In this document: piece by piece, positions 1 through 18,647 of the stretch
Layout: each line of letters starts with the position of its first letter
Numbering within the stretch: position 1 is the first letter of the stretch
Assembly: GCA_019752535.1 (NCBI GenBank)
Contig: JAIEMA010000003.1
Coordinates: forward strand, 1 to 64,000
Direction of reading: 5' to 3'
Length of the DNA: 64,000 nucleotides
Source of the DNA: Bacteriovoracaceae bacterium
GTDB taxonomy: Bacteria; Bdellovibrionota; Bacteriovoracia; Bacteriovoracales; Bacteriovoracaceae
The notes under the pieces: generated by a model
What the model was told of the DNA's origin: nothing
What the model saw: only the letters and a program-made list of their open reading frames with translations
The model's database searches: none
Program-made: the position numbers and the translations under genes

Positions 1-1005
1 TAGTTCCTTAGTCTCATCCGTGATTAGAACCTGCACAAGGTGCTTCGCTATGAAATGTTCAAATAATAGGGCAATGTCTTCTTTTCGTTCTCTTAGGGGA
101 AGTAGATTAACCTGGAAGGTTGATATCCTCGCAAAGAGATCACTACGAAACCGGCCAGCACTGATGAGTTCTTGAATATTCTCACAGGTTGCCGAAATGA
201 TCCTGAAATTGGATTTGACTGATTTATTTGAGCCAACTGGGTAAAATTCTTTCTCTTCAATTGCCTTCAATAGTGTTTTCTGAGATCTGATAGAGAGGGC
301 ATGGATTTCATCTAGAAATATAATTCCATTATCAGCTTTTTCTAATAGGCCCATCTTGTTTTCATTAGCACCTGTGAATGCACCTTTTTTATGTCCAAAC
401 AATTCACTGGCGATTAATTCATCACTAAACTGAGAACAATTTAATTCTAGGAATTCACACGAACCAGATATCTTTTTGATAAGATGGCCGATAACTCTTT
501 TTCCTGTACCTGTTTCACCACTAATGAAAATCGGACGATCCGATATTGTTAGGTTCTTAAGTTTGTAGAGTTCATCCGTCTGCTTCTGTGATTTTGTGAT
601 GAATGACTCATTTATGATCTTCTCAAAATCGGAATGCTTTCTATTATTAAAAAAGCGGTTTAGAACTTGTGTAAGTTTTTCTTTGTCAAAAGGTTTAAGT
701 AAGTAATCTTTTGCGCCGTTTAGAAATGCATCTTTTAATACTTCCTGTCTGGTTTCTCCGGATACGACAATTGAATAAATATTTTTTGCCTCAGCGTATT
801 TGATTAACTTCAATCCATCTAGTTGTCCGTGGAGGTTGAGATCAAAAAATGCGATATCAATTTTTTGATTCGCAATTATAGCCTCGGCCTCACTTGTTGA
901 TGTGGCCGTTTTGATAGACCCGTAATCGGCCAATATACGTTTATTGGTTTGAAGCGTGAGAGAGTCGTCTTCAACTAAGAGGATAGAGATTTCGGTATTT
1001 TTCAT
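1..1005 (-). CDS. Sigma-54-dependent response regulator, NtrC type (partial)
   Basis: Two-component activator; its C-terminal end lies beyond the left window edge. Residues 1-115 form a receiver domain with acidic pair E12/D13, phosphoacceptor D55 (FFDLNLHG), S82 and K104. A sigma-54 AAA+ domain follows, with Walker A GETGTGK, the sigma-54 contact loop GAFTGA and Walker B IIFLDE. The DNA-binding domain is not visible. The gene is divergent from the conjugation operon, whose upstream region carries a -24/-12 promoter and two palindromes, so it is the likely activator of transfer. The partner kinase is not in view. Start chosen at the ATG giving a standard receiver N-terminus ([14 protein letters not shown]). 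Confidence 0.93.
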
Positions 1006-1058: not shown

Positions 1059-1073
1059 GATAACAGTGTTATC
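1059..1073. promoter_or_regulatory. Perfect palindrome, candidate upstream activator site
   Basis: GATAACAGTGTTATC has 7-bp arms around a single G. It shares the GATAAC/GTTATC half-sites with the second palindrome at 1191-1208. It lies just upstream of the response-regulator gene, so it could serve both autoregulation and activation of the transfer operon. Confidence 0.55.
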
Positions 1074-1190
1074 TAATCCATACCGGTCGGAGCCGCGTGC
1101 TGGCGCGCAGCATTTCGGTAAGTGCCCGTAAACTTGTTGGTTATGTTGTTACCACAAGTGACGTTGATTTCTCCCATTCGTTGCAAATTC

Positions 1191-1208
1191 GATAACGGCC
1201 TTGTTATC
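1191..1208. promoter_or_regulatory. Second GATAAC/GTTATC inverted repeat, candidate enhancer site
   Basis: GATAACGGCCTTGTTATC has the same half-sites as 1059-1073 but with a 6-bp spacer instead of 3. Its centre is roughly 85 bp upstream of the -24 element, a usual distance for activators of sigma-54 promoters. Confidence 0.5.
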
Positions 1209-1281
1209 CGATGTGTACCACTCGATCTGGGTGACCACAGCTAAACCATTCTAAATTCAAGAAAAGCTTCAAACAAATTCT

Positions 1282-1297
1282 TGGCACGCTTTTTGAC
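1282..1297 (+). promoter_or_regulatory. Sigma-54 (-24/-12) promoter of the transfer operon
   Basis: TGGCACG-N4-TTGAC matches the sigma-54 consensus TGGCACG-N4-TTGCA except for GA in place of GC at -12. Transcription would start near 1309, just before the first small ORF (ATG 1323, RBS AGAGGTGA). The rest of the 317-bp gap 1006-1322 holds the two palindromes above and no ORF that I recognise. Confidence 0.7.
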
Positions 1298-1322
1298 TAA
1301 GCAGTGGTCAAAAGAGGTGAAC

Positions 1323-1457
1323 ATGAATGGCTACTTTGAGGTTTTAAATTTTCAGATACCAAACGACCTGAAGTTACTTTACGAATCGATCTCAGAAGAG
1401 TTCGAGAAGCGCATCTACGATGCAATCAAATTAGGAGAAGAGCATGAAGAAAATTAA
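1323..1457 (+). CDS. Small protein, 44 aa, first gene of transfer operon
   Basis: Opens with a good RBS (AGAGGTGA, 2 nt before ATG) about 14 nt after the predicted transcription start. The product (MNGYFEVLNFQIPNDLKLLY...) is acidic with no signal peptide or membrane segment. I do not recognise a family. It overlaps the next small ORF by 14 nt, suggesting translational coupling. It is placed as a leader gene of the conjugation operon and may be regulatory. Confidence 0.55.
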   Translation: MNGYFEVLNFQIPNDLKLLYESISEEFEKRIYDAIKLGEEHEEN

Positions 1458-1558: not shown

Positions 1559-1747
1559 ATGAGTAAGTCACTTAGAAACGTGAAAATGGAAGTCATGGAT
1601 CTTTTTGGTGCCATCAGTGTTGAGGAGCTTATCAAGAACATAAAGCTCCAGAATCTCATGCAAGAGATTTCAAGCTCATTAGATGATGACTCAATTGGAA
1701 TGAAGGCTAAAAACGAAAGGAGGATTTCATGGAAGGGACCAAGGTAG
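1559..1747 (+). CDS. Small helical protein, 62 aa
   Basis: ATG preceded by AAGGGAGCGAGA. The product (MSKSLRNVKMEVMDLFGAISVEELI...) looks wholly helical and soluble, with an acidic middle and basic end. It overlaps the next small ORF by 19 nt in another frame. Function unknown; it is the third of four small genes ahead of the secretion genes. Confidence 0.55.
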   Translation: MSKSLRNVKMEVMDLFGAISVEELIKNIKLQNLMQEISSSLDDDSIGMKAKNERRISWKGPR

Positions 1748-1887
1748 AAGAGTTGAGATTCAAGGTTGATGTTCTTGAACAGCTATTGTCTAAAGATGAG
1801 TTACAGCGATCCTCAGTAAATAAAAGGCTCCTTCGAATAAGAAGACGCTTAAATCAATTAATACATTTCAACGACGAGGGTGAGTAA
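1729..1887 (+). CDS. Small coiled-coil-like protein, 52 aa
   Basis: ATG at 1729 has a strong RBS (AAAGGAGG) lying inside the previous ORF. The product starts MEGTKVEELRFKVDVLEQLL and then turns very basic (KRLLRIRRRLNQ), which suggests a short helix pair or nucleic-acid contact. The stop TAA shares its last base with the ATG of the 631-aa lipoprotein gene, so the two are translationally coupled. No family recognised. Confidence 0.6.
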   Translation: MEGTKVEELRFKVDVLEQLLSKDELQRSSVNKRLLRIRRRLNQLIHFNDEGE

Positions 1888-3782
1888 TGAAATATTTTAT
1901 GTTTTCATTTTTTATTTTAATGGTGTCTTGTTCTTTCAAGTCGCCAGAAAAAGATAAGAAAAATAATGAAGCTCGGAACTACGAGGAAATTAAGCCAGAA
2001 GATTTATCCAAAATGGATACTGATGGTGATCGGATCAATGATCTTGAAGAAAAACAGAAAGGACTGAATCCATTTGTTGCGGATATTCCTGAGCTTCGAG
2101 CTAGATTCTTGCAAAATTATTCCATCAAGGTGAACTGGCATGTAAAGACTCCAGATGGAGTGGATCACACAGATGCAGCATGGGATTTTACAATTGATAC
2201 GCGTGTTGGTCGCAATGATCCAGATTTTAAGTATCGAGTGGGAGAAATTCTTGTAAGGAACAAAGCCTTCGAAGAAGCCTCTCGCATAGGTCGTTTTTCA
2301 ACTCATAGCTGGGGAGAAATTAAAGAGTCGGATCTAACAAGAGTCATCTACCCAGAAGTGGATACACGCTTTAGCGGGGTGAATGCACTAAAGACTGGCC
2401 AGTATTTTGATAATCTAGGAGTCGCCATAGATAAGGTGACGGTCGAACTGGAAAATACAGTTAAGCTTTTACCGAACTCTCTTTATAGCAGTGTGAAGAA
2501 CCTTGAACTCAACTTCTATTACTTTGATTATAAAACCGAATCTTACGAACTTCTGACTACCAAGACAGTAGACCGCCATTTCAACAGGGATGTTAATGAA
2601 ACATTTTCAGTCATCCTAGAGAATGTTCCATTGGACCTCATATCTCAAAACTATTTAAAACGTGGTGAGTTCATCATTTCGGAGGTGAAAGACTTTGAGA
2701 TTCCAGAGATCGGCATTAAGTATTCGGAGTTGATGGGATCAGTGAAAGCAAAAACCATTCAAATGGTGATGAATACTCCGCTTGAGACAACAAGTGCTTT
2801 CGTGGCCCCCTACAGTAAGAAGAATCGATTTTCGGATCTAATGGAAAACATCTACCCCAAACAACATAAAATTGAAGAAGACAAGCTTGTGAAGGTTGGG
2901 CAGTTTGAAAATAACCTACCTGACTATACTCATCTTAAAGAAGTGAAGATTGAGGATAAAAAAGGAAAATGGTTTGTTTTTACTGATCGCATGTCTCAGA
3001 CATATCTTGATCATGAATATCTTCCGGGAGAATCCATTGTCCTTTCATATGTGACTGGAAAAGAACTTTCTGCTCAAACTTCTGAGAAAGTGAATAGTCT
3101 TCGTTTCAGTGTTTCAGGGAATGATGATTTTGAGATTTATCCTTTAGGAAACGTGTCTCCGAATTCTATTGTGGATTTCCAGCTTTCGACAGGTAAACGA
3201 ACTGGCGAAGGCGTTGATAAAAAAGAAGATCATCCCGTCAGTGGGGGCGACTGTGGAAGTAACTGTCACGTCTGGCAGTATCAATGCCACTTCAAATTTA
3301 ATACTTTTAAGAAAAGAAATGAGGGGTATGAGTTTAAAAAAGACTTAACAGAAGAACTGACTCAACTTTCACTCATCATCAATGAAGAAGAATTCAATCT
3401 GAAGAAGCTAGTAGAAGAAAAAAAAGTAGAAGTTTTCTGGCAAGATCAAAATGCTCATTTTCGAATCAGTGATATTTCAAAGATCAAAGAAATTATTGAG
3501 GCCGATGAAAACGTCATTTCTCTCAAGTTAACAACTCTTACGGAGACAACTCACGATGGAGTCTTCTTAGTAAGTTACTCAGGGAGAGAATCCTATGGAT
3601 GCTTCGAACTTGCAGCAGCCGCGGCATATCACCAAAATATTCCCGTATATGAAGGATCAAAGGATTTTAACCAGTGGAGCCGCTTTTATAATTGGAATGT
3701 TCTTAAGATAGGGAAGGATCGCGCTTATAAGCAGCCGTTTACGATGAACGTGAGCAGTATCGTTAATAACTATTTTAACTAG
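1887..3782 (+). CDS. Large lipoprotein of the conjugation operon
   Basis: 631 aa. The signal peptide ends in a lipobox (LMVSC, Cys about residue 15), so it is probably anchored in the outer or inner membrane. Residues about 44-66 hold a calcium-binding, thrombospondin type 3-like segment (DTDGDRINDLEE). A Cys cluster (GGDCGSNCHVW) lies near residue 455. The remainder is beta-rich and not recognised. It sits directly ahead of the pilin gene, so it may be a surface or mating-pair component specific to this family of elements. Function is inferred from position only. Confidence 0.8.
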   Translation: MKYFMFSFFILMVSCSFKSPEKDKKNNEARNYEEIKPEDLSKMDTDGDRINDLEEKQKGLNPFVADIPELRARFLQNYSIKVNWHVKTPDGVDHTDAAWDFTIDTRVGRNDPDFKYRVGEILVRNKAFEEASRIGRFSTHSWGEIKESDLTRVIYPEVDTRFSGVNALKTGQYFDNLGVAIDKVTVELENTVKLLPNSLYSSVKNLELNFYYFDYKTESYELLTTKTVDRHFNRDVNETFSVILENVPLDLISQNYLKRGEFIISEVKDFEIPEIGIKYSELMGSVKAKTIQMVMNTPLETTSAFVAPYSKKNRFSDLMENIYPKQHKIEEDKLVKVGQFENNLPDYTHLKEVKIEDKKGKWFVFTDRMSQTYLDHEYLPGESIVLSYVTGKELSAQTSEKVNSLRFSVSGNDDFEIYPLGNVSPNSIVDFQLSTGKRTGEGVDKKEDHPVSGGDCGSNCHVWQYQCHFKFNTFKKRNEGYEFKKDLTEELTQLSLIINEEEFNLKKLVEEKKVEVFWQDQNAHFRISDISKIKEIIEADENVISLKLTTLTETTHDGVFLVSYSGRESYGCFELAAAAAYHQNIPVYEGSKDFNQWSRFYNWNVLKIGKDRAYKQPFTMNVSSIVNNYFN

Positions 3783-4059: not shown

Positions 4060-4299
4060 ATGAAAAGATATCCAAAGTTTTTGAAAGTGCTACCTGAGTT
4101 CTATGGTTTGAATTTTATAGATATTGGACTGGTGATGGTGGGTCTTTATGGTGGATTGATTCTGAAATTCCCACCACTCGTGACCATTTTGTTTGTTGGC
4201 GTTCTTATTGGAGCCTCAAAAACGATAAGAAAATATGTGGATGTTGTGGGATTTCTTTCACCAAGGAAGGTGAGAGTTGAAATTAAGGAGCAGGGATGA
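4060..4299 (+). CDS. VirB3-like inner-membrane protein
   Basis: 79 aa from ATG 4060 (RBS GAGG, 5-nt spacing); an upstream GTG at 4045 would overlap the pilin stop and is less likely. It has one or two hydrophobic segments (IDIGLVMVGLYGGLIL and VTILFVGVLIGA) and a basic tail. Size and position between pilin and VirB4 fit VirB3, which assists pilus assembly with VirB4. The stop overlaps the VirB4 start (ATGA). Confidence 0.75.
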   Translation: MKRYPKFLKVLPEFYGLNFIDIGLVMVGLYGGLILKFPPLVTILFVGVLIGASKTIRKYVDVVGFLSPRKVRVEIKEQG

Positions 4300-6176
4300 T
4301 TCCTTTATTTGAAACACAAGGGCATAAGCTGACTTCTCTGAAAGGAGAGGTCAGCTCCTTTTACGAAGTTCTGCCACCGGATCTTGAACAAGTGGACGGG
4401 GATTCCTGTACTAAGATCCTGAGGGAGATTGAACGAAGCCTGATGAATTTGGAAGGGGTTTTAAAAGTATATTGGTTGAAGGGTAAGCTCTTCCTAAATA
4501 CATTTTCAGATTTTGAAATTTCTTATGGAGAAATGATTCCCAGTGATAGACCAGTTGAAATCTATCTTTCGGAAAATGGCGGAGAGATTAATTATTATGA
4601 AAACTATCTCACGGTAGGGCCTGAGTTCGTTAGAGTCCTAACTCTAAAAGAGTTTCCAGATAATATTGGGGTCATGGACTCGTTTGGGTATCCCGACTTT
4701 GTAATGCATCTGCGGCGCTATAATCCCATTAAGGCAAAAAACAAGTTGAATTTTAAGCGTAAATTACACTTCTCTGCTCTTTATAAGGGAATGAGGGATC
4801 TGGAGTCTGAAAATGCTTTTAATGAAGCCGAAAGTTTGCTGGAAGATGTGACTCGTAATGAACGTGCCCTTTTTGATGTGGAAGTTTTTTTCTTAGTTAG
4901 AGGCAGTACCAAGGTTGAGCTGGATCACGCCACAAAAGATTTTATTGAACAATTCAAGCTATTAGGGGCGAGCTTTATCACAGAAGAGAGAGGCTTATCT
5001 TTTTTTCACCAGAGCACTATTCCTGGAGTAGGGCCTCGTTTTAAACGAGATCTTCCTGTTCCAAGTGACTATCTGTCGCATCTTATCCCTATGAACCGTG
5101 ATTTCGTCATGGATAAGGGGATGACCCTACATGCGAGGTCGGGCCAATCGGTAATGATTGAACTCTTTAATAGTAGTTCACCCAATTACAACGTGCTGGT
5201 GACAGGTTCCTCTGGTCAGGGAAAATCTATGATCGCGAATAAGATTTTAAGGTATGAGCTGGGTAGCGGAACGAAAGGAATCGTTCTGGATTTGGGGAAT
5301 TCATTTCGAAAGAATGCTCTTTATCATGGCGGGGTGATTCTTTCCGAAAAATTTAACCCGCTTCAGTTCAAAAATCCAAGGTATCTCAAAGAATTCGTTT
5401 TAAGTGTTATTGACGACAAACTTGGCAAACGAGAAGAGGGACGCCTCTATGAGATAATTAAGGAAACAATTGAAACTTATCAAAATATTGACTTTGATGA
5501 GTTTCTAAAAATTCTTGAAAATAATTTCAAAGGGATCAGCTTTTACTTTTCAGAAATAAAAGACTTTATCACTGATGAGGTTCTTGAGTTGAATGATTTT
5601 ACCTACTGTGACTTTGGACATTATCCAGAATCGATGAAGGCTCCACTGATCATTTATCTGATTGAATACTTCAAGCACCTTACTGGACGTAAGATTTTTA
5701 TTTTTGATGAGTGTTGGCACCTCCTCTCAAAAAATGCGGATTATATTGCTGAATGTTTCAGGACTTTTCGTAAATACGATGCTTCAGCCGTGGCGATTTC
5801 ACAAAACTTAGATGATTTTTGTGAAACGCAGTTGGGACGGGTTATTATGCAGAATACATTTTACAAACTCCTATTCAAGCAATCAGTAAAATCTAGTGAA
5901 TTCTTGGATGATCATCTCGTTGAAATGATGTCGAACATCCTTTCGAAAAAGGGTGAATATAGTGAGTTTCTCTTATTGACGGAAACCATTCGAAAACCCA
6001 TCCGCTTTTATCCAGATACATTCGAGTACCAGCTTTTTACCTCTGACAGGCGGGATAATGCCAAGTTCGAAGTCTATATGGAGGAAAAAGGGCGCTTTCT
6101 TGATTTTAAGGATGCGATGGAAAACTTTACTAAGATTAAAAATCCAAATTGGGGGATGCATGAAGAAGAGATTTAG
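4296..6176 (+). CDS. virB4: VirB4/TraC-like conjugation ATPase
   Basis: 626 aa, shorter than typical VirB4 (about 800). The N-terminal region is divergent; Walker A is GSSGQGKS at residues 304-311 and Walker B is IFIFDE near 466-472, followed by a VirB4-type SQ motif (AISQNL). It energises pilin extraction and assembly at the inner membrane. It overlaps VirB3 by 4 nt and the VirB5-like gene by 17 nt. No VirB11 partner is seen in the window, so this may be the only assembly ATPase. Confidence 0.93.
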   Translation: MIPLFETQGHKLTSLKGEVSSFYEVLPPDLEQVDGDSCTKILREIERSLMNLEGVLKVYWLKGKLFLNTFSDFEISYGEMIPSDRPVEIYLSENGGEINYYENYLTVGPEFVRVLTLKEFPDNIGVMDSFGYPDFVMHLRRYNPIKAKNKLNFKRKLHFSALYKGMRDLESENAFNEAESLLEDVTRNERALFDVEVFFLVRGSTKVELDHATKDFIEQFKLLGASFITEERGLSFFHQSTIPGVGPRFKRDLPVPSDYLSHLIPMNRDFVMDKGMTLHARSGQSVMIELFNSSSPNYNVLVTGSSGQGKSMIANKILRYELGSGTKGIVLDLGNSFRKNALYHGGVILSEKFNPLQFKNPRYLKEFVLSVIDDKLGKREEGRLYEIIKETIETYQNIDFDEFLKILENNFKGISFYFSEIKDFITDEVLELNDFTYCDFGHYPESMKAPLIIYLIEYFKHLTGRKIFIFDECWHLLSKNADYIAECFRTFRKYDASAVAISQNLDDFCETQLGRVIMQNTFYKLLFKQSVKSSEFLDDHLVEMMSNILSKKGEYSEFLLLTETIRKPIRFYPDTFEYQLFTSDRRDNAKFEVYMEEKGRFLDFKDAMENFTKIKNPNWGMHEEEI

Positions 6177-6825
6177 TTATTTCTTAATTTGTTTTTCACT
6201 AATGATCAATGGCTCTCAAGCTCAAATTATCAGTGCTGATACGGCCTTACTAGTGGAACTTGTTACGACGACAGCGAGCCAACTTAATGAACTTGAAAAG
6301 CTTCTTTCTAATGCTGAGAAATACACAGCGAAGATGCAGCAATATAATGAGCTGGTTCAAGATGAGTATTTTCGAGCTGAGAGGATTTTATATCTTGTGG
6401 AATCACTTGCAGCAAAAAAAGAAATTCAGGGTTTGGGTGATGTGAATAATGCCATTAGGGACTTGAAGTATTCCATGGCCGATCTGCAAGCGATGATGAA
6501 GGAGTATTCTATCATTATCGACGACGAGAAGAAAACGAAGGCGATAGTTAAAACCCAGAAAAATTTCAATGAAAAGAAAGCGAAACTAGCCGAAGGGCAA
6601 GTGAAGAAGTCTATCAATGCTAAAACATCAGGACGTGCCACTCAGCTTACGGCTCAGAATACAGCACTGATGCTGGAATCGAATGTGGATATGCACAATA
6701 CCCAACTTGATATGCTTGAAAAAGTTTCTACCACAAATCGCCTTCTCGCTGAGCAGATGGAAGAGAAGAGACGTGAAGAACTTGAAAAGAAGAAAACTTA
6801 TAATATAGGCAGGGAGATCAAGTGA
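6160..6825 (+). CDS. VirB5-like secreted coiled-coil protein
   Basis: 221 aa from ATG 6160, which gives a clean signal peptide (MKKRFSYFLICFSLMINGSQA); the longer upstream reading would bury it. The mature part is alpha-helical with coiled-coil character (NELEKLLSNAEKYTAKMQ and a C-terminal EEKRREELEKKK). VirB5 proteins are helical minor pilins at the pilus tip, and the position between VirB4 and VirB6 matches. Sequence similarity is low, so the call rests on architecture and order. Confidence 0.65.
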   Translation: MKKRFSYFLICFSLMINGSQAQIISADTALLVELVTTTASQLNELEKLLSNAEKYTAKMQQYNELVQDEYFRAERILYLVESLAAKKEIQGLGDVNNAIRDLKYSMADLQAMMKEYSIIIDDEKKTKAIVKTQKNFNEKKAKLAEGQVKKSINAKTSGRATQLTAQNTALMLESNVDMHNTQLDMLEKVSTTNRLLAEQMEEKRREELEKKKTYNIGREIK

Positions 6826-8159
6826 GTACCAACATCCTCAAAGAGATGCTCCTGATTGAAGACCCTTCTGTTTTCAAACTCTATAGTGAGATGACGAGTC
6901 TTGCCGGGTATTTTGTGGCTCCATTGTTCACCATTGCTTTGATCCTGGAGTATTTCGGAGATATGAATTTTGGGATGGTCGTAAAGAAGTTGGTTGTTAT
7001 CTCTATCTTCATGGGAGCATTTTATCAGTTTCACACGAACGCCGTAGACCTTTCACTTGAGACGGCATCTTATACGCTTAAGAAAGTGAGTCCACGCAAC
7101 CTGTTTGTTAAAAAATGGTATGAAATCAAGGTCAGAACAAAGCAAGACAAGGGATGGAGCTTTCTTGAAAAATTTGCTGTTCCAAATCTAAATGATTTAT
7201 TGGCCACCGCCTTCTTCCTACTCGCAAAAGTGTTTATTTGGCTTTTGAAATTAATTTACTCGACTGTTTACCATTTGGCCTACGTGTTTTCCGGAATCAC
7301 GGCCATTCTCTATTTTCTGGGTTGGACCAAGGATGCATTGAAAGGGACGATTCAGGCGAGCCTTTGGTGCATGTTGCTGCCTTTCGTGATTGTGGCAATC
7401 CTCTCTTTTGTCGGAAACAGCTTTGACCTTTCTGCACTTCGTGGGGAATTCGTCGGCTCTCAGATAGATACGATCATTTGGCTCTTTGGTGTGACTCTAC
7501 TTCTCCTGATTAGTCCCCTAATAACTCAAGGGCTAATAAAAGGTGATGGAGTCCATTCGGCTGGGGCCAAGGTTGGATCAATGCTTGTCAGTTCAGGCAT
7601 GAAAACCATGACCATGTTGCCACCGATGATGAAGCTTACGGAAAGAGTTACTGGCAAAAATTTAAGTTTCTTTGGAAGTGGCACAAAGAATTTTAAGCCA
7701 TCTGGACCCAATAATTTGAAGGAACCGAAAAAGGATTCAAGTCCTAATCAAGATGGTTCAAAAGAGACTAAATCTAATCAACGTTCAGAAGTGAAAAGCT
7801 CCGAAGGTAAAGTTGAAACGAAAGGTCAGAATCTGGGCACTGGGATTCAGAATAATAAAGAAAAAACTCTGAATACCTCCAATTCATCTAAGGAGACCAG
7901 AGGAGGAGATAAAACTCAAACAAAAGACAGTGTTCATCAGTCGAGGGATAAAATCCAGACCTCTCAAAAAAACAATGTGAATTCGACAAATGTGAGAACA
8001 CCACCTAAGGAAGGCAAGAGTGAAAAAGCGCAGTTTCGGCCACAACCTTTAAGGCAAACCAAGACGGATTCAAAAACTCAATTCAACAAAGGCAGAGAGA
8101 CAAAAGTTCAGTCAAGTATCAAGCCCCACATAAGGAGTGTGAAACGTGAGCTTCGATAA
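6822..8159 (+). CDS. VirB6/TrbL-like polytopic membrane protein
   Basis: 445 aa, GTG start overlapping the previous stop (GTGA). Residues about 25-60 and 125-235 hold several membrane helices, including LLATAFFLLAKVFIWLLKLIY and TIIWLFGVTLLLLISPLI. The last 170 residues are hydrophilic, Lys/Ser/Thr/Asn-rich and low-complexity, probably a disordered cytoplasmic or periplasmic tail. VirB6 proteins form part of the inner-membrane channel. The long tail is an unusual addition, though extended VirB6 proteins are known. Confidence 0.8.
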   Translation: MSTNILKEMLLIEDPSVFKLYSEMTSLAGYFVAPLFTIALILEYFGDMNFGMVVKKLVVISIFMGAFYQFHTNAVDLSLETASYTLKKVSPRNLFVKKWYEIKVRTKQDKGWSFLEKFAVPNLNDLLATAFFLLAKVFIWLLKLIYSTVYHLAYVFSGITAILYFLGWTKDALKGTIQASLWCMLLPFVIVAILSFVGNSFDLSALRGEFVGSQIDTIIWLFGVTLLLLISPLITQGLIKGDGVHSAGAKVGSMLVSSGMKTMTMLPPMMKLTERVTGKNLSFFGSGTKNFKPSGPNNLKEPKKDSSPNQDGSKETKSNQRSEVKSSEGKVETKGQNLGTGIQNNKEKTLNTSNSSKETRGGDKTQTKDSVHQSRDKIQTSQKNNVNSTNVRTPPKEGKSEKAQFRPQPLRQTKTDSKTQFNKGRETKVQSSIKPHIRSVKRELR

Positions 8160-9083: not shown

Positions 9084-9842
9084 ATGAAGAATTTAGCGGT
9101 CCTTGTGATCGTAGTGGGACTTCTTACCTTTGAAAACCACTCGATGGCACAAATTACGAGGCTTAAAAAGATTGAGCAAAAAGTGAATCGGTCTCAGATT
9201 AAGAGAAGGAGCAGCAACAATGATGAACTTTTACAAAAAATCTTTGAAAACAACAAAAAGGTTAATGCCTTACTTGAACAAAGGAGCAGCGTTCCTGTTA
9301 TTTGGGAAAACAACTCAAAAATCCTCACGGGGAAAGTATTCAGGGGTGCTCTTTTGAATTCGATTAATTCCACCAATATTGATTCGCCGGTTTTAGTAGG
9401 GGCCTATCCCAACCAAGGCCTACCATACAAGACGTTGTTCGCTTGTCAGGCAACCACACAGAACAAGAGGGTGTTCACTCTTTGTAACAAGATGATTACT
9501 CCTGACAAGGAAATTCCTATCGTTGCCCAAATCCTTAATGTTGATGGAACGAGTGGGCTCTTAGGTGAATACAATGACGGAAAGGAAGATCTGATCGTTG
9601 GTGCGGTTGTGAGTGACTTTTCTCAAGGCGTGTTATCGGCCGCTCAAACTCGAATTGCTGGGCCACTTGGTGGAGTAACTGATTCAAGTGGGAAGAATCA
9701 AGTTTTTCAGGGCCTAATCGAATCCGGTAAAAGGACTTCTGACATTTTACTGGATGAAATGAAGACCATGCAGCCAGTGGTAACGGTTAATGCAGGGGAT
9801 GAGGTGCTGGTTTACTTAATGGAGGCCGTAAATGAAATATAG
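9084..9842 (+). CDS. VirB10/TraB-like core-complex protein
   Basis: 252 aa. The C-terminal two thirds resembles the VirB10 beta-barrel domain (KILTGKVFRGALLNSINST..., VGAVVSDFSQG..., VTVNAGDEVLVYL). The N-terminus looks like a cleavable signal peptide (LLTFENHSMAQ) followed by a basic coiled segment, whereas VirB10 normally keeps an inner-membrane anchor and Pro-rich linker. It may therefore not bridge both membranes. It overlaps the downstream lipoprotein gene by 11 nt. Confidence 0.8.
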   Translation: MKNLAVLVIVVGLLTFENHSMAQITRLKKIEQKVNRSQIKRRSSNNDELLQKIFENNKKVNALLEQRSSVPVIWENNSKILTGKVFRGALLNSINSTNIDSPVLVGAYPNQGLPYKTLFACQATTQNKRVFTLCNKMITPDKEIPIVAQILNVDGTSGLLGEYNDGKEDLIVGAVVSDFSQGVLSAAQTRIAGPLGGVTDSSGKNQVFQGLIESGKRTSDILLDEMKTMQPVVTVNAGDEVLVYLMEAVNEI

Positions 9843-10341
9843 CTTCCTCGTTTGTCTTGTTGTGCTTTGTTCTTGTTCAACTCTAAAGCGTTCCATGATT
9901 GGCGGTGCTTTGATAGGGGGATTAGTTGGTGGTGGCGGTGGAGCCATCTTCTCACCTGATGAAATGTCGAGGGATAAGAATGCTTATATGTTTGGTGTTC
10001 TCGGGGCAGCGGTTGGAACTGGACTTGCTTATCTCTTCTATGATGAACCCAAAAAACCGGGCCTGAATAATCCCATGATGCTTGATGAACCCATTCAAAA
10101 TCACCAAGAGGTTCCTCTATTTGATTTTTCACCAGAACTTAAAGGCCTTAAGCCCGAGGTCAGTTTTAAGCCGGTGAAAAAATATGAAGTCCCACAAGAG
10201 AAGCTCCCCAATGAACTTATGGGGAAAGTTAAAAAGCAATACATCATCGAATATGAAGCTGAGGCCCGAACAATTGAGTTAGGGAACCGTACCATTCAAA
10301 TCAGCCCGTTCAAGGCATGGGAGCACACTTATGAAAAATAA
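9832..10341 (+). CDS. VirB7/TraV-like lipoprotein with glycine zipper
   Basis: 169 aa. Lipobox VVLCSC in the signal peptide; then a Gly-rich hydrophobic segment (IGGALIGGLVGGGGGAIF) and a second small hydrophobic stretch (GVLGAAVGTGLAYLF). It lies between the VirB10-like and VirD4 genes and overlaps both. Lipoproteins of this position stabilise the outer-membrane core complex. Longer than classic VirB7 and nearer TraV in size. Assignment by architecture. Confidence 0.65.
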   Translation: MKYSFLVCLVVLCSCSTLKRSMIGGALIGGLVGGGGGAIFSPDEMSRDKNAYMFGVLGAAVGTGLAYLFYDEPKKPGLNNPMMLDEPIQNHQEVPLFDFSPELKGLKPEVSFKPVKKYEVPQEKLPNELMGKVKKQYIIEYEAEARTIELGNRTIQISPFKAWEHTYEK

Positions 10342-11731
10342 ACAAAAATCTGGATCGGAACTTGATTTATTCACACCTGTCGTTGAAATCTTTCATGAAC
10401 TCTGCGTTTTATTGTTCTCTGTCTTATTTGAACTTGGAAAACTCACGTTCAGAAAAATAATGAACAAAGCTCCAGAAATGGAAAAGATAGAGCGAAAAGC
10501 TCTCAGAGTTTCACGGGAAACAAGCGCTGAGGATGCTTTGGGAATTGATACCAGGACGAAAAAAGAAATCAAGCTTGGTGATATTGATTTTGGCAAGCAT
10601 ACCTTTATTGTTGGCGCATCAGGTTTTGGTAAAACTAACTTGATCTCCATTCTTCAGGAGAATTCCCTTCTTAATAACAAGCCTATCATCTTTGTTGATC
10701 CAAAAGGCGATGCTGAAGCTTTGGATACTTTCAGACGTCTGTGCCAACAATACAATCGAACTTGTTATGTTTTCTCTGAGCATGACCCGGATTCAATTTC
10801 CCTAAACCCGATATTAGAAGGAACTGAAAGTCAGGTTTCTGATCGACTCATGGGTGCATTTGTTTGGAGTGAGGAGTTTTATAAAGATGCATGCCGTAGA
10901 AGCTTAAATAAGGCCCTTGATCATTTAAAACTGGAGGACAAGCCTTTTACGCTTAAAAATATTTACGATTACCTTTGCGCTCACGAAACAAAAGAGAACC
11001 TTGGAATAATTACAAAAATAGAAAACATTCTTAAGAGTGACTTTGGCAAGATTCTAAATGCTGGCCATGATGGACTGACCATTTCAAAAGTCAGGGAAGA
11101 GCGGGCCTGCCTCTATATCGGTTTATCTGTTCAGGGATATGGAGAAACTGCCGTGGCCATTGGGAAATTATTCCTGGGTGAGCTTCTTTTTAATTCCTAC
11201 AGTACCCTACTGAAAATAGGCAAGGACTCCCTCGCTAAAACTCATCCGATGAGTATTTATTTTGATGAGTTTGGCTCTCTCATCACACCACAGTTCATTG
11301 AACTTGAAAATAAGTGTCGAGGTGCTGGAATGGAGCTGACGATGGCGGTTCAAACTGCATCAGACATCAATAGAGTAGACCCAGAGCTGACAATTCAGGT
11401 GATAGAAAACACTGCCAATTTTTTCATCTTCAAACAACGAATGCAGGTCAATGCAGAGATCTTTTCTCAGGCCATCGGAACGATTTTGGCCAAGAAGCAG
11501 ACTTATAAAGTTGAGAACGGAGAGAAACAGGATTCGGCCAGTGAGCGGGAAGTGCATGAGATGATCGTCCATCCGGATGTCATTAAGAACCTTGGAGTCG
11601 GCCAGTGTGTTCTCTTAAGACAAGGAAGGCCTGCCAAAGTAAATCTCATCAATATCAGGAATAGGGACAAGGCCCTGATGAAAAAGATTGCGGTCTTGAA
11701 GATAAAAGAAGCAGGGGCATTTGATAAATAA
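10331..11731 (+). CDS. virD4: VirD4/TraD-type coupling protein
   Basis: 466 aa. Walker A GASGFGKT at residues 95-102 and Walker B YFDEFGSL around D312/E313, with the TraD/TraG-like follow-on CRGAGMELTMAVQTASD. The N-terminal hydrophobic segment (about residues 15-40) is short for a membrane anchor. It brings the relaxase-DNA complex to the secretion channel. It overlaps the preceding lipoprotein gene by 11 nt and is followed at once by the candidate relaxase, completing the transfer module. Confidence 0.92.
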   Translation: MKNKQKSGSELDLFTPVVEIFHELCVLLFSVLFELGKLTFRKIMNKAPEMEKIERKALRVSRETSAEDALGIDTRTKKEIKLGDIDFGKHTFIVGASGFGKTNLISILQENSLLNNKPIIFVDPKGDAEALDTFRRLCQQYNRTCYVFSEHDPDSISLNPILEGTESQVSDRLMGAFVWSEEFYKDACRRSLNKALDHLKLEDKPFTLKNIYDYLCAHETKENLGIITKIENILKSDFGKILNAGHDGLTISKVREERACLYIGLSVQGYGETAVAIGKLFLGELLFNSYSTLLKIGKDSLAKTHPMSIYFDEFGSLITPQFIELENKCRGAGMELTMAVQTASDINRVDPELTIQVIENTANFFIFKQRMQVNAEIFSQAIGTILAKKQTYKVENGEKQDSASEREVHEMIVHPDVIKNLGVGQCVLLRQGRPAKVNLINIRNRDKALMKKIAVLKIKEAGAFDK

Positions 11732-11741
11732 AGGAGGCCTG

Positions 11742-12503
11742 ATGATTAAAAGCATCGAAGATTTTCATTTAGTGAACAGTTTCCACCTAAGTTATCTAAG
11801 GCCACTTTTGAAGTGGCGAATCATGGACGTTAAAAGTTTAATGAAGGAGTCAGAGATTGAATCACATTATCACAACTTTTACAGGATCATCAGGCTGCTT
11901 GAATCAAAGAAAGTACTGGAAGGATTTAGAGATCCTTATAGCGGGAAGAAATACGTCTATCTCAGCAGTCGCGGGGAATCGGCGTTGTCGCTCAAGGAGA
12001 ACCCAACATCAGTTTCAACGAATACATTAATTCATGATCTGAAGGTTTCTGAAATTGGTCGCATGTTTTTGAATAATGGATGGGTCAATGAGGTAATGCT
12101 TGAACACGAAATTAACGACAAGAGTGTTTTTCTTTCAGCGGCAAAAGTAAACCCAGATGCACTATTTGAAGGGGAGCGCAAAGGAAAGAAATTCAGAATC
12201 GCTTTTGAGTTAGAGCTTACCAGAAAGTCCAAACAAAGGATTGTTCAGAAAGCCCTCTATTATTCTGAGAGCGATTACTATGACTATATCCTTTATATGT
12301 TTTCTCAGAAAAGCTTGGTCGATAGTTACATGGAAATCATCAGGGAGAAAGTTGGTCTGGAAAAGATGAATAAGTTTATGTTCTTTTTTAACCCGTTCCT
12401 GACTTCTGATAAATGTTTTGATTCAGATCCAAGCGGGTATTTTAAAGGAAATGAGACAAGCCTTTCGACCATATTCGCGACTGTGCAAATGGGGTCTAAA
12501 TGA
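11742..12503 (+). CDS. Candidate MOBC/TraX-type relaxase (Replic_Relax-like)
   Basis: 253 aa; ATG 11742 chosen for the strong RBS AAGGAGG (4-nt spacing) over an upstream TTG. The N-terminal half looks like a winged helix (YHNFYRIIRLLESKKVLEGF... YLSSRGESAL). The C-terminal half has a PD-(D/E)XK-like core: P138-D139, then E156-L-E158 in FELELTRKSK. The MOBC relaxases of CloDF13 (MobC) and pAD1 (TraX) are known to have this winged-helix plus restriction-endonuclease-like plan. It follows the coupling protein and precedes a nested inverted repeat, a fitting place for a relaxase next to oriT. No Tyr-type relaxase is visible. Confidence 0.65.
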   Translation: MIKSIEDFHLVNSFHLSYLRPLLKWRIMDVKSLMKESEIESHYHNFYRIIRLLESKKVLEGFRDPYSGKKYVYLSSRGESALSLKENPTSVSTNTLIHDLKVSEIGRMFLNNGWVNEVMLEHEINDKSVFLSAAKVNPDALFEGERKGKKFRIAFELELTRKSKQRIVQKALYYSESDYYDYILYMFSQKSLVDSYMEIIREKVGLEKMNKFMFFFNPFLTSDKCFDSDPSGYFKGNETSLSTIFATVQMGSK

Positions 12504-13672: not shown

Positions 13673-14815
13673 ATGTCGATTAAAGAATACCATGAAAATG
13701 GTAAAACCTTATTTGAAGTGTATGTTCACGTTAAAAGTAGCTCTGATCCCTTGCTTAGGGTGCAGAGGCGCAAACGTAATATTCTTTCAATGAGGGAGGC
13801 TGCCAAAGAAGAGATTAGAATGACTAAAGACTCGCTTATGGTGCTTGGTGCTTTAGAAGAAAAGGGAAATACATGGGAGCGAATTATTGAACTTTGGTAT
13901 TATGACCAAATTCAAAATGGCTCTGACCGTTACGCAAATAAGTTTACGATTGAGGACTATCATAAAATGCTAAGACGCTATACTGCGGATTGGTTTAAGA
14001 GAAGACCCCAGGAGTTAACGAGAGGTGATGGAAAAAGAGTATTGGAAAATCTTTATGTTTTGGGCAAATCAAAAAGCTACATCATGAAGATTAAAAATAC
14101 GATCAATGTTGTTTTTCAGTGGGCCATAGATAATCGTCAGGTTAAGGACCTTCTTTTTAGTCCCATGCAGGGAATGAAAATTGATAAGAAGGAAGAAAAA
14201 TTTCCTGAGATATTGAATCTTACTGAGATTCGAACTTTTCTCTTTGAAGCAAAAAGACGTTCACATGAGTGGTATCCCGTTTGGGCCATGGCACTTTTAA
14301 CAGGTATGAGAAGCGGTGAGCTTTACGCCCTTGAATGGAATGATATTGATTTTGAGAACAAGCTTGTACGCGTGAAACAATCTTTCAGCAAACGTACAAA
14401 CGAAATAAAATCTACCAAAGCAGGGTATTGGCGGAATGTTCCTATTTCAGTCGAGCTTAATAACCTGATCGTGGAACTAAAATCTTTTACTGGTCATGAT
14501 CGTTGGGTCTTACCCCGATTAAGGGACTGGGAAAGAGGAGAGCAGGCAAAGCCTTTAAGGGCCTTCCTTAAAGACATTGGCCTTCCCTCAGTTAAGTTTC
14601 ACACGTTACGTGCTTGCTTTGCGACTCAGCTATTAGCGAATGGCGTGGAGACAAGCAAGGTGATGAAGATAGGGGGCTGGAAGGATCTCAAGACCATGCA
14701 GATCTATATGAGGCTTGCAGGAGTTGATGAGAGAGGGGCCACTGAGAATCTCAGGTTTTTACCTAGTGATGAGGCTGTTATGGGAAAAGTAGCCGAGCTT
14801 TTTGTTTCGAGATGA
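13673..14815 (+). CDS. Tyrosine integrase (Int 1)
   Basis: 380 aa phage/ICE-type integrase. The catalytic set is complete: R213 in TGMRSGE, H310-T-L-R313, the GGW segment and nucleophile Y345 (IYMRLAG). A SAM-like core-binding domain precedes it (residues about 65-165). It closes the conjugative module and would integrate or excise the element with Xis 1. A 20-bp stretch at 14679-14698 encoding GWKDLKTM is identical in Int 2, showing that the two are related. Confidence 0.93.
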   Translation: MSIKEYHENGKTLFEVYVHVKSSSDPLLRVQRRKRNILSMREAAKEEIRMTKDSLMVLGALEEKGNTWERIIELWYYDQIQNGSDRYANKFTIEDYHKMLRRYTADWFKRRPQELTRGDGKRVLENLYVLGKSKSYIMKIKNTINVVFQWAIDNRQVKDLLFSPMQGMKIDKKEEKFPEILNLTEIRTFLFEAKRRSHEWYPVWAMALLTGMRSGELYALEWNDIDFENKLVRVKQSFSKRTNEIKSTKAGYWRNVPISVELNNLIVELKSFTGHDRWVLPRLRDWERGEQAKPLRAFLKDIGLPSVKFHTLRACFATQLLANGVETSKVMKIGGWKDLKTMQIYMRLAGVDERGATENLRFLPSDEAVMGKVAELFVSR

Positions 14816-15097: not shown

Positions 15098-16378
15098 ATG
15101 TTTTCTCCTAAAGAAGACTTTGATTTCATGAACTCGGAAACTTGGCTTAAGTATACTCATGAAAGGTACTTAGGGGAAGACGAGCTTAAGCACAGATCTA
15201 ATTTGGGCCATGAGCCTTTAAAATGGGATGAATATTGGCAAAGGATTATGGTCACTAGAAAGAGAGGCGCAGTTCCTGTTTTTCTTGATTCGATAAATTT
15301 GAAATTTTGGTTTTTTCCTTCTGACTCAATTCAAAAGAAGCTTATTGAAATAGAAAGACTAGGGACTCAACTCTACGACAAGATAGTTGCACATAGTGAA
15401 TTTAAGGAAAGTTTTTTAGCTGACGCTGAAATTGAGGAAGCGATTAGTTCCGCAATCTATGAAGGTGCCAATACAACAAGGGCAAAAGCTAAGCAATTAT
15501 TAGAATCCGGCAAAAGGCCTGCGAGCAAAGACGATTGGATGTTGCTAAATAATTTTGAAGCATTGAATTGGATTAAAGAGAATCGTTCAAATCAGCTTAC
15601 GACGGACAGTATTTTAAAAATTCACCAAATAGTCACAAAAAATACACTCACAGGCGATGATGCCAATTTTTGTGGAAAATTTAGAAATGACTCAGTTGTT
15701 GTTAACAGTGCTCTTGGAAGGATTGTTCATGAAGGGATTCATTTTTCAAAAATAAATGATGCAATTAAAGAAACAATACAAAAAGTGACTTCTCATCCGA
15801 GATACTTACATCCCCTTATTAAAGGGATATTGCTTCATTACTTAATTGCATACATACATCCCTTTTTTGACGGAAATGGAAGAACTGCGAGGACTCTGTT
15901 TTACTTTAAATCAATGAAGCATGATTTGAAATTCGTAGAATTACTTTCAATTTCGGCTCACCTTAAAAATTCGGGAAATCATTATGAAAGAGCTTTCGAG
16001 AAAGTAAAGAAGCATGACTGGGATCTCACTTATTTTATCGATTATTGCCTAGAATCTTTATTGGCAGCATTAAAGATAGTAGAAGGCAAGGTTGCTTATC
16101 TAATCAAAATTAATCTTTTAAAAGTGCCTTTCTCAATAAATGAAAATCAAATTGGATTACTTCAAAGGCTAGCTCTCAATAAGTACAGGCCTGTTTCCAT
16201 TGAGAAATATGCTGAAGAAATCAATAAGTCGAGAGAAGTGGCGAGACAAGAGTTGAAGACTTTGGTTGAGCTTGGATTCCTTAGAGAAGAAAAATCTGGC
16301 AAGAAGTTTGTCTATTTTGTCGAATCCAAGAAACTAAAAGAAAAAGTTTCTCATGAAGAAGTTATGAGCATTTTATAA
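15098..16378 (+). CDS. Fic-family AMP-transferase with internal inhibitory helix
   Basis: 426 aa. Fic motif HPFFDGNGR at residues 254-262. An N-terminal inhibitory motif S-A-I-Y-E-G (S118-G123) fits (S/T)xxxE(G/N), so activity is probably self-restrained (class II). The C-terminal 80 residues look like a winged helix (IEKYAEEINKSREVARQELKTLVELGFL), which could bind the inverted repeats upstream. Fic enzymes usually transfer AMP to a protein hydroxyl. It is the first gene of region B, co-directional with the membrane GAF-like gene 15 bp downstream. Confidence 0.9.
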   Translation: MFSPKEDFDFMNSETWLKYTHERYLGEDELKHRSNLGHEPLKWDEYWQRIMVTRKRGAVPVFLDSINLKFWFFPSDSIQKKLIEIERLGTQLYDKIVAHSEFKESFLADAEIEEAISSAIYEGANTTRAKAKQLLESGKRPASKDDWMLLNNFEALNWIKENRSNQLTTDSILKIHQIVTKNTLTGDDANFCGKFRNDSVVVNSALGRIVHEGIHFSKINDAIKETIQKVTSHPRYLHPLIKGILLHYLIAYIHPFFDGNGRTARTLFYFKSMKHDLKFVELLSISAHLKNSGNHYERAFEKVKKHDWDLTYFIDYCLESLLAALKIVEGKVAYLIKINLLKVPFSINENQIGLLQRLALNKYRPVSIEKYAEEINKSREVARQELKTLVELGFLREEKSGKKFVYFVESKKLKEKVSHEEVMSIL

Positions 16379-16393
16379 AATCCAGGACAAACG

Positions 16394-17194
16394 ATGTTGA
16401 AAGAAGCCTTTAAAGATACTTTAAAACATTTCATGCCCGTCTTTTGGGATGTTCTAATATCAGTTGGAACAACAACCTTGTTTCAAGTTTTAAAAGGCGA
16501 GAATATTGTTTTAACTCCGAAATTGATTTGTTTAATTGCTGCAGGTGTCATTTTATTGCATTTTATAAATCATGTTTACAAGAATTTTCGAAAGATGAAA
16601 GAGCTTAAGGATATTTCAGATAAAAAAATTGAAAATGAAATAAAGCAAATGACAATTGAATTTGGAAGAAAGTTTGTGTCAATACTAGGTAATGAAACTC
16701 GAACTACTGTTTTTGTAGAACAAGAGGTTGGAGATAAGCTATTTCTGAGGATTATTTCGAGGTTTAATAGCTACCGAGAAGACCAAAATGATACAACATG
16801 GCAACTGGATAGAAACTCGCATATGGGATGCGTAGGAATAGCAGGAAGAGCGTGGAGCAAGAACGAACCAGTATCAAGGCCACGACTTTTAGGTAAAAAT
16901 AAATTGAATCAACTGGTAAGATCTGAAGACGAAAATTCAATTAAAGCGCTTAATGATGAGCTTCGCGATTTAAATATGTCTAAAGAGGAACTAGTCCAAA
17001 GATTAAGTGAGCCTGATAGGAAATTCAAGTTTCCCATGTCTATGTACGCTAAACCTGGAACTTTAAGAAATGGCCGTAAATTTGTGATTGCCATTGATAA
17101 TGACAATAATAATACAAGCTTTCGAACTAATTTTATTAGTGATGTTTGCAGTTTTACAGATTGTTTAAAACATACAATGAACTTGAATGAGTGA
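16394..17194 (+). CDS. Membrane-anchored GAF-like sensor protein
   Basis: 266 aa. Two N-terminal membrane helices (about residues 18-35 and 44-63), a charged helical linker (MKELKDISDKKIENEIKQM), then a domain with GAF-like features (GCVGIAGRAWSKNEPVSRP and a final KFVIAIDND strand). No catalytic motif seen. Just downstream of fic and probably cotranscribed. It might sense a small molecule or stress at the membrane. Family assignment is tentative. Confidence 0.55.
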   Translation: MLKEAFKDTLKHFMPVFWDVLISVGTTTLFQVLKGENIVLTPKLICLIAAGVILLHFINHVYKNFRKMKELKDISDKKIENEIKQMTIEFGRKFVSILGNETRTTVFVEQEVGDKLFLRIISRFNSYREDQNDTTWQLDRNSHMGCVGIAGRAWSKNEPVSRPRLLGKNKLNQLVRSEDENSIKALNDELRDLNMSKEELVQRLSEPDRKFKFPMSMYAKPGTLRNGRKFVIAIDNDNNNTSFRTNFISDVCSFTDCLKHTMNLNE

Positions 17195-17336
17195 TGCTAC
17201 TTTAGTGCTACTTTCCTTGTAAGTATAAGCGATCATTCGAGTAACGAAGAATCCACCATTCGTAAAAGCGTATGTCTCAAAATCCCTGACCTCTAAATTC
17301 AGCAATGAAAACAGGAGTTTAAATTTTGGGACAAAC

Positions 17337-17380
17337 ACTTTCTTCCCACCCTTAATCATTTGATATCACGATGTATAATT
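17337..17380 (+). promoter_or_regulatory. Promoter block, copy 1 (TATAAT at 17374)
   Basis: A 44-bp block from ACTTTCTTCC to TATAATT. It aligns without gaps to 18527-18570 with 36 of 44 identical bases, including the -10 hexamer TATAAT (17374-17379 and 18564-18569). The -35 region is weak in both, so the conserved part may bind an activator or reflect a shared cassette end. Confidence 0.55.
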
Positions 17381-17418
17381 TGAGTTGTAGTTGAGATGTA
17401 GTTTTTCACTGTAGTTGA

Positions 17419-17438
17419 GGCAACTACATGTAGTTGCC
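17419..17438. promoter_or_regulatory. Perfect 20-bp palindrome with TGTAGTTG direct repeats
   Basis: GGCAACTACATGTAGTTGCC is a perfect palindrome 80 bp before the NERD start. TGTAGTTG also occurs nearby at about 17386 and 17410 and again near 35327 and 35336. Probably an operator for an unidentified dimeric regulator. Confidence 0.6.
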
Positions 17439-17472
17439 CAAGGTCTTCTGCATGATATGAAGAGAACAAGCA

Positions 17473-17489
17473 GGTTCTACGTCGAGATT
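17473..17489 (+). repeat. Dispersed repeat R1
   Basis: GGTTCTACGTCGAGATT, one base from the consensus GGTTCTACGTAGAGATT, whose core TCTACGTAGA is a palindrome. It lies 32 bp before the NERD ATG. See R2-R6. Confidence 0.65.
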
Positions 17490-17521
17490 TGAAAAGAACA
17501 ATTACTACTTATAGGAGCAGG

Positions 17522-18430
17522 ATGGCGGTTGTCTTTGGTGAAATTGATTGTTTAAAAAATCTGATCGATATTCTAAAGCGAAGTGGGATTGAACACATAA
17601 AGTCTCTCGACGATGTAATTAAGTTCAAGAATGTTTGCGATGATAAAGTCAAAGAAGCTGAAGCTATCGCACGGCAAGAGCACCATCTTAAATTGACTCA
17701 ACAGAAAGAGATGATTTCAAATCATGTTGCGGAGCAGGTTAATACTCAAGAAAATCTATCGTACTTGCGTAAGGTTTTTCGATCTGTAGTGTCTTGGTTT
17801 AAACTGTTTAATCTAAGAAGAGAATTAAAGAGGCTTGAGAGAAAATCAGAGAAGATCATTCGTAATAAGATTTCTCAAATGACGGGGTCATTTTTAACGT
17901 CAAAATATCTACTTGATTCAAATTACGCTTTGATTCAAGGTGCCTCTGGAGAACAGCAAGCACTTGATGAACTCAGAAAACTTCCTGATTCTTATAACGT
18001 AATCAACAATGTTCAACTTCGTTTCTTGAAACCTGTTTATAACCCAAGGACTCGGCAAAGAGTTTATACGGCACAAGCTGACCATGTAGTGCTTGGCCCT
18101 TCCGGTGTCTTTCTTGTTGAGACCAAGAACTGGTCAAACGGTACAATAAAAAGAACGACTAACTTCAGTGCATTTGATCAGATCAAGCGCACCAACTTTG
18201 CTTTGTATTGCCATCTTAATCCACGAACGAATGGCTTTTTTTCATTTTTCTCTGAAGCAAAGAAAATACCAGTAAAGAGTGTACTGCTGATGACGGGCCA
18301 AACAACAGGGGAGAGAGATTCCTTCGTAAAGGTCGTTAGTCTCTATGAGCTAAATAGCTACATTACTAACTGTGCTCCAGTGATGACTGAACTAGAGATT
18401 AAGAAAGTTTTGAACAAACTATTGTACTAG
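17522..18430 (+). CDS. NERD-domain nuclease-related protein
   Basis: 302 aa from ATG 17522 (RBS AGGAG); an upstream TTG is possible. The N-terminal half is helical and charged. The C-terminal half is a NERD domain: GASGEQQALDEL, then ADHVVLGPSGVFLVETKNW, which supplies the D...E-x-K core of the PD-(D/E)XK fold. NERD proteins occur in defence and DNA-processing settings. The gene is bracketed by repeats R1 and R2 with its own promoter block, as a single-gene cassette. Confidence 0.82.
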   Translation: MAVVFGEIDCLKNLIDILKRSGIEHIKSLDDVIKFKNVCDDKVKEAEAIARQEHHLKLTQQKEMISNHVAEQVNTQENLSYLRKVFRSVVSWFKLFNLRRELKRLERKSEKIIRNKISQMTGSFLTSKYLLDSNYALIQGASGEQQALDELRKLPDSYNVINNVQLRFLKPVYNPRTRQRVYTAQADHVVLGPSGVFLVETKNWSNGTIKRTTNFSAFDQIKRTNFALYCHLNPRTNGFFSFFSEAKKIPVKSVLLMTGQTTGERDSFVKVVSLYELNSYITNCAPVMTELEIKKVLNKLLY

Positions 18431-18443
18431 GCTCAGTGATTAA

Positions 18444-18460
18444 GGTTCTACGTAGAGATT
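18444..18460 (+). repeat. Dispersed repeat R2
   Basis: GGTTCTACGTAGAGATT, exact consensus, 13 bp after the NERD stop and upstream of the DUF2971 promoter block. Confidence 0.7.
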
Positions 18461-18526
18461 CCTGAATCAAACCGACAGCTCTTGTCTGGTAATTGAACGG
18501 TTTTAATAATTCTTAAGATCGTTGAT

Positions 18527-18570: not shown

Positions 18571-18647
18571 AAAGACATAATTAATTCGTACTTTATTGCT
18601 GTATTCGATTTGAGTACACGTATTCGACTTTTTCATAAGGAAGACTA

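Follow-up and report, generated by a model that had tools for sequence, protein, structure and literature searches.

In Vibrio, the LuxN/LuxPQ-LuxU-LuxO relay joins hybrid kinases through a separate histidine phosphotransfer protein to an NtrC-type receiver-AAA+ activator that acts with sigma-54, and LuxO-type activators work without signal. Quorum sensing by PhcB/PhcS in Ralstonia involves a methyltransferase and a sensor kinase (PMC8578825, PMC11960443). Conjugation of ICEBs1 is governed by an element-encoded signal and receptor, RapI-PhrI, and its self-signal represses a reporter (PMC8055654). TraR/TraI of Ti plasmids is another element-encoded signal and receptor controlling conjugation. 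Two-component control of a DNA-exporting type IV secretion system (T4SS) is exerted by VirA/VirG in Agrobacterium. Control of conjugation by sigma-54 and a phosphorelay, or of the transfer of an integrative conjugative element (ICE) by sigma-54, was not reported in the open-access literature searched, its absence elsewhere being unproven. The same search returned nothing on conjugation in Bacteriovorax, and in one Azorhizobium ICE paper RpoN appears only in a reference title.

Here we analyzed a window of 64,000 nucleotides, the start of a 96-kb contig (C9) in a 3.49-Mb draft genome (G000) whose VirB4 relatives are Bacteriovoracaceae. We infer that the window likely holds the control region of an ICE of ~18.6 kb. 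As in the Vibrio relay, a hybrid kinase is found with a separate His phosphotransfer protein and an NtrC-type receiver-AAA+ activator with sigma-54, and in some related elements a periplasmic binding protein and a kinase accompany an MTA/SAH nucleosidase, which belongs to AI-2 metabolism. In contrast to that relay, these cassettes lie on a mobile element, their output is a transfer operon rather than small RNAs, the His protein resembles a stand-alone DHp hairpin rather than a LuxU-type HPt, and enzyme and sensor vary. The window version resembles PhcB/PhcS in having a SAM methyltransferase gene beside that of a membrane histidine kinase; it differs in that the activator is sigma-54 dependent, PhcA being LysR-type, and in that the methyltransferase model is nearest to histamine N-methyltransferase (no PhcB sequence was compared). 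ICEBs1 and the Ti plasmid differ in using peptide or acyl-homoserine-lactone signals, with neither sigma-54 nor a phosphorelay. VirA/VirG differs as well: VirG is OmpR-type and sigma-70 dependent, plant phenolics are sensed, and there is no separate phosphotransfer protein. By analogy, the locus would work like a LuxU/LuxO relay joined to element-encoded signaling of the ICEBs1 kind; it would differ in having an output at a sigma-54 promoter of the transfer operon and an exchangeable input cassette.

RESULTS

An NtrC-type activator gene diverges from a conjugative transfer operon

The genes of the element that lie within the window are as follows.

1-1005, minus strand: NtrC-type response regulator, receiver plus AAA+ sigma-54 activation domain (Pfam and motifs)
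1323-1457, 1444-1548, 1559-1747 and 1729-1887, plus strand: four short ORFs opening the transfer operon, no family known
1887-3782, plus strand: 631-aa protein with lipoprotein-like N terminus, conserved in most of these T4SS operons
4296-6176, plus strand: VirB4/TraC-type conjugation ATPase (P-loop_TraG 6.6e-18; TraC-F-type 7e-39, below cutoff)
6822-8159, plus strand: VirB6/TrbL-like membrane protein (weak NCBIfam TrbL match, 0.0027; conserved position)
9084-9842, plus strand: VirB10/TrbI (PF03743, 1.1e-12)
10331-11731, plus strand: VirD4/TraD coupling protein (PF02534, 7.3e-10; SXT_TraD 8e-34, below cutoff)
11721-12503, plus strand: candidate MobC (replication-relaxation family) relaxase (NF041423, 2.5e-5, below cutoff)
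13673-14815, plus strand: tyrosine integrase (PF00589, 1e-21)

The preliminary description of the sequence had proposed a conjugation operon and a divergent, receiver-linked activator with a GAFTGA motif, and both claims held. VirB4/TraC, VirB10/TrbI, the VirD4/TraD coupling protein and the integrase were matched within one unit, the relaxase resting on the sub-cutoff MobC match. The 631-aa protein matched no Pfam or NCBIfam family. Short ORFs follow the promoter in related loci too. The regulator matches Response_reg (4.7e-17) and Sigma54_activat (3.7e-52), and its phospho-acceptor Asp, Walker A motif, GAFTGA loop and arginine finger are present. Receiver, Walker A and GAFTGA/GSFTGA-type motifs were intact in the family activators checked, the motif reading GSFSGA in locus L054.

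The missing half of the regulatory operon encodes a small His protein, a methyltransferase and a hybrid kinase

The contig end truncates the regulator gene, and the preliminary description had missed what follows it, i.e., the kinase, the small His protein and the variable enzyme, which form the most unusual part of the locus. The regulator C terminus is found at the start of contig C28 of this genome, with ~31 bp missing in between as judged by synteny. Next on C28 come genes for a 66-aa histidine phosphotransfer-like protein, a SAM methyltransferase and a two-receiver hybrid histidine kinase; start/stop overlaps occur between genes of the operon. A sister element (L102, genome G095), split over contigs C37 and C92, is 86.9% identical to the window over 4.3 kb and 95.0% over 10.5 kb. 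Its regulatory operon is complete, with an activator of 462 aa, a 66-aa protein, a 274-aa SAM methyltransferase and an 826-aa membrane kinase. HATPase and receiver domains were found in this kinase, the second receiver being read from the sequence by eye.

The 66-aa sister protein gave a weak HisKA match (7e-4). No Pfam match to a C-terminal Fis-like helix-turn-helix (HTH) was obtained with the full-length sister activator; an HTH-like C-terminal motif aligns across activator family members. LuxO was among the structural relatives found. The best structural match of the methyltransferase model is histamine N-methyltransferase (Z 22.9; next family 16.5), predicting a small-molecule enzyme whose substrate is not given by the match.

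Homology with the sister element ends at 14790, at the integrase end, and at position 3832 of C28, 30-odd bp past the kinase. Thus, the shared unit consists of the two divergent operons and spans ~18.6 kb. At the element ends we found no shared repeat of ≥10 bp, no direct or attachment repeat and no tRNA target. Past the integrase, the region 15098-34220 resembles an adjoining island: its genes, named by eye from translations, include a Fic-type protein, a serine recombinase, a DNA methyltransferase with a restriction-like partner, a UvrD-like helicase and a second tyrosine integrase (33138-34220).

A sigma-54-like site precedes the transfer operon

The intergenic region contains the following elements.

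1059-1073, unstranded: distal palindrome GATAACAGTGTTATC, GATAAC-N3-GTTATC, exact
1191-1208, unstranded: proximal palindrome GATAACGGCCTTGTTATC, GATAAC-N6-GTTATC, exact; putative activator enhancer
1282-1297, plus strand: sigma-54-like -24/-12 promoter TGGCACGCTTTTTGAC, TGGCAC-G-CTTT-TTGAC, expected start at ~1308
1291-1313, overlapping the -12 element and the 5' leader: inverted repeat TTTTGAC-N9-GTCAAAA, role unknown, partly kept in G095

The -24/-12 element that had been proposed upstream of the transfer operon was confirmed at that location, with one reservation. GG is present at -24, which is exact, and TTG at -12, which is one base off consensus: GA replaces GC, giving GG-N10-GA. A scan of the 64-kb window for two-mismatch sigma-54 matches returned 3 against 6 expected, i.e., no more than chance. 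The single-window scan being uninformative, the weight of the site rests on where it lies and how well it is kept. Among matches to a sigma-54 position weight matrix on either strand of the upstream region it ranked first (p=0.02 versus shuffles); the values of this matrix were not derived from a database. The same genome encodes RpoN on contig C11, with an intact RpoN box (ARRTVAKYRE).

A sequence search of 950-1500 found no sigma-70-type promoter. The TTGAC at -12 was also considered as a sigma-70 -35 hexamer and rejected: a -35 at 1293 puts the start beyond the ATG at 1323, and no -10 was found. Inverted repeats directly downstream of promoters also occur in L100, where the repeat covers the ribosome-binding site, and in L105, L107 and L108. 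Such repeats past several sigma-54 sites possibly represent a leader hairpin or an operator, their role being unknown.

The site is conserved in related loci and in the sister element

VirB4 searches of the phylum gave matches in 60 of 369 genomes. Among related Bacteriovoracaceae there are 15 non-redundant loci in which the type IV secretion operon has a homologous activator upstream in divergent orientation, and all 15 carry a TGGC-N7-YTG site aimed at the transfer operon. Operons without a known activator reach the same site score in 8 of 30 cases (Fisher p 1.4e-6). The site is the best or near-best match near the operon, with competing matches in the long gaps of L097, L101, L105 and L108. 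We note that loci were selected with the same matrix, which makes agreement at matrix positions partly circular, and that the search regions were not identical. Downstream TTA columns, outside the matrix, are also common to the loci. A post hoc family pattern requiring TA was dropped; it had 0 matches at the window site, where TAAG lies one base earlier. The -12 elements of the family read TTG followed by C, A or T, and GA or GT occurs in other loci too. L007 and L048 have a good sigma-54-like site at the T4SS operon with no activator seen; the contig of L007 ends close by, and L048 has 8 kb upstream without one.

Comparison with the sister copy provided a footprint. The TGGCAC and TTGACTAAG blocks are identical in window and G095 at 15 of 15 positions, and the five bases between them keep 2 of 5. 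Identity drops to 64% in the middle of the intergenic region (1074-1159).

Palindromes lie at enhancer distance

Two GATAAC/GTTATC palindromes had been described at enhancer distance. Both were confirmed as exact, with the qualification that the distal one differs in half-site spacing (N3 versus N6) and lies 54 bp upstream of the regulator start codon, 223 bp upstream of the -24 element. The proximal one begins 91 bp and ends 74 bp before the -24 element, in keeping with the ~80-150 bp looked for in an enhancer of an NtrC-family activator. The pair is well beyond expectation for the window (2 seen versus 0.02 expected; no shuffle held two), and the whole 3.49-Mb genome has just one further match. 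As an additional target this third palindrome was discarded: it lies within the coding sequence of an RND transporter and is taken as chance. Because of its different spacing and the regulator start 54 bp away, autoregulation by the distal palindrome was considered, and it is possibly a second enhancer or an autoregulatory site. Both palindromes are identical in G095 (distal 15/15, proximal 18/18); the proximal one sits within a block of 90-95% identity, and its conservation is therefore no independent evidence.

In most of the 15 non-redundant loci, palindromes occur ~75-140 bases upstream of the sigma-54-like site. Those centered ~70-130 bp upstream exceed shuffles across loci (combined p 1.9e-6), and this zone is richer in palindromes than neighboring zones (p 0.003 and 0.011). 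Single-locus p-values are weak (0.13 for the window locus), and L006, L046 and L105 gave no palindrome signal in the enhancer interval test. The palindrome sequences differ from locus to locus, as do the activator C termini. Such differences would be expected if each palindrome fits the HTH of its own activator, a possibility for which there are no binding data.

A small His protein is constant and its neighbor enzyme variable

A protein of 58-72 aa is encoded directly behind the divergent activator in every readable locus. Among 18 such sequences, His9 is the one invariant residue. Structure modeling gave a confident two-helix hairpin (mean pLDDT 89). DHp domains are among its nearest folds, with nonsignificant E-values. 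The gene that follows changes family between elements, and a kinase then comes in nearly all readable loci; hybrid kinases with receivers were found behind the activator. Every ICE cassette read has an enzyme or exporter in this slot, always inside the regulatory operon.

Methyltransferase: window, L102, L105-L108
MTA/SAH nucleosidase: L152/L097, L100, L098
Cyclase/kynurenine-formamidase-like hydrolase: L148/L004, L150/L005, L046, L154/L008
Short-chain dehydrogenase: L054
Glyoxalase/VOC: L101, L006
Cupin_5: L099
LysE exporter: L104

In many cassettes, a gene for a secreted protein, periplasmic ligand-binding or other, lies between the slot gene and a kinase. Another arrangement (L014/L156, L015, L111) runs kinase-activator-alpha/beta hydrolase, without the small His protein; its T4SS lies farther away and also has a good sigma-54 site.

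Many homologous activators lie away from T4SS genes, followed by a His protein and then a secreted protein, without enzyme. In L080, L082, L084-L086 and L088-L096, the His protein is of the HDINSS type and the secreted protein is conserved (~270 aa). These sets possibly represent an uncharacterized phosphorelay of the family, maybe the ancestral one.

Individual loci depart from the common picture. In L105, L107 and L108, the activator-His protein-methyltransferase-kinase cassette of the window stands beside a very different T4SS (VirB4 ~26% identical) and the -12 elements read TTGTA; the methyltransferase frame of L107 is broken. In L109/L153 (G123), three stop codons interrupt an activator relative, with His protein and kinase still adjoining.

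Cassettes have been swapped between transfer backbones

The activator tree and the VirB4 tree conflict, and the conflict is strongly supported. L005 and L014 share 75% identity in VirB4 versus 34% in the activator, and their enzymes differ. The reverse is seen for the window and L105 (VirB4 26%, activator 58%, same enzyme type) and for L014 and L111 (VirB4 38%, activator 79%). The window and its near activators (61-66% identical to it) have four different families in the enzyme slot. Cassettes have thus been exchanged between transfer backbones, and the enzyme changes together with the sensor between elements.

DISCUSSION

In the mechanism that we propose, a regulatory operon (activator, His protein, methyltransferase, hybrid kinase) stands divergent to a transfer operon (T4SS, coupling protein, candidate relaxase, integrase). 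The membrane hybrid kinase would sense a ligand, and phosphate would pass from the kinase His to the kinase receiver, to the small His protein and on to the activator receiver, an order inferred from the domains. The activator would bind the proximal palindrome, and RpoN polymerase would form an open complex at 1282-1297, leading to transcription of the transfer operon; the binding step is inferred without binding data, and the last one is an inference supported by comparison. In the least certain step, the kinase ligand would be a small molecule made or modified by the element's own enzyme, i.e., element-specific self-signaling.

These parts are not equally secure. Control of transfer by sigma-54 and the divergent activator is very likely, on in silico evidence without experiment. 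The preliminary description had read the locus as controlled by sigma-54 and a phosphorelay, and comparative evidence beyond the window, likewise in silico, supports this reading. With the kinase and the small His protein, the missing half of the operon supplies the components that a His-Asp-His-Asp relay needs. As judged by sequence, the set is complete: a hybrid kinase carrying a receiver, a His phosphotransfer protein and a receiver-AAA+ activator, with no claim of LuxU homology. A relay through the small His protein is probable, as an inference without phosphotransfer data. Since the enzyme differs per element and travels with the sensor, its product, or a small molecule that it modifies, is the best candidate for the ligand; product and ligand being unknown, this link between enzyme and sensed signal is an inference whose chances we would put no better than evenly balanced.

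The rival that survives best keeps the same sigma-54/phosphorelay switch and lets the kinase sense an environmental, prey or host-metabolic cue, the enzyme degrading or modifying this cue or being cargo, without self-signaling. In its favor, the MTA/SAH nucleosidase, glyoxalase, cupin and cyclase-like hydrolase could serve detoxification or degradation, the sensors include periplasmic ligand-binding proteins, and the homologous activators elsewhere in these genomes have a His protein paired with a secreted protein instead of an enzyme. Against it, the slot inside the regulatory operon is filled by an enzyme or exporter in every ICE cassette read and changes with the sensor. We consider this rival slightly more likely to be wrong than right.

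Alternatively, an unlinked host kinase might phosphorylate the activator, with the linked hybrid kinase and small His protein serving another output. Neither hybrid kinases nor orphan activators are rare, the sequences here do not reveal partner specificity, and G000 encodes many other histidine kinases. However, diverged elements have retained the order activator-small His protein-enzyme-kinase, genes of the window copy overlap at start/stop codons, and this alternative is unlikely. It is very unlikely that the -24/-12 match is fortuitous, a sigma-70-type promoter driving the transfer operon and the NtrC-type protein controlling something else: the window match alone is within chance, its -12 is off consensus and TTGAC is readable as a -35 hexamer, but no sigma-70-type site was found in 950-1500 and the site is kept in 15/15 loci and in the sister-copy footprint.

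The sign of the response, i.e., whether the signal turns transfer on or off, is not determined. Because LuxO-type activators are active without signal and the ICEBs1 self-signal represses its reporter, transfer when few neighbors carry the element is an attractive option, though no more than a possibility. A bolder extension is polymorphic self-recognition, in which each ICE would have its own signal-making enzyme and matching sensor on a common phosphorelay/sigma-54 output. Elements would then count carriers of their own kind, time their transfer and exchange cassettes as 'signal types'; taken jointly, we lean slightly against this reading.

That sensor and companion enzyme differ per element suggests that each element awaits its own chemical signal before moving. 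If this is true, a modular switch that accepts different enzyme/sensor cassettes would control a whole family of mobile elements carried by relatives of predatory bacteria. The cassettes would offer a natural series of enzyme-kinase pairs for identifying new small-molecule signals, and it would become testable how mobile DNA senses whether neighbors already carry the element.
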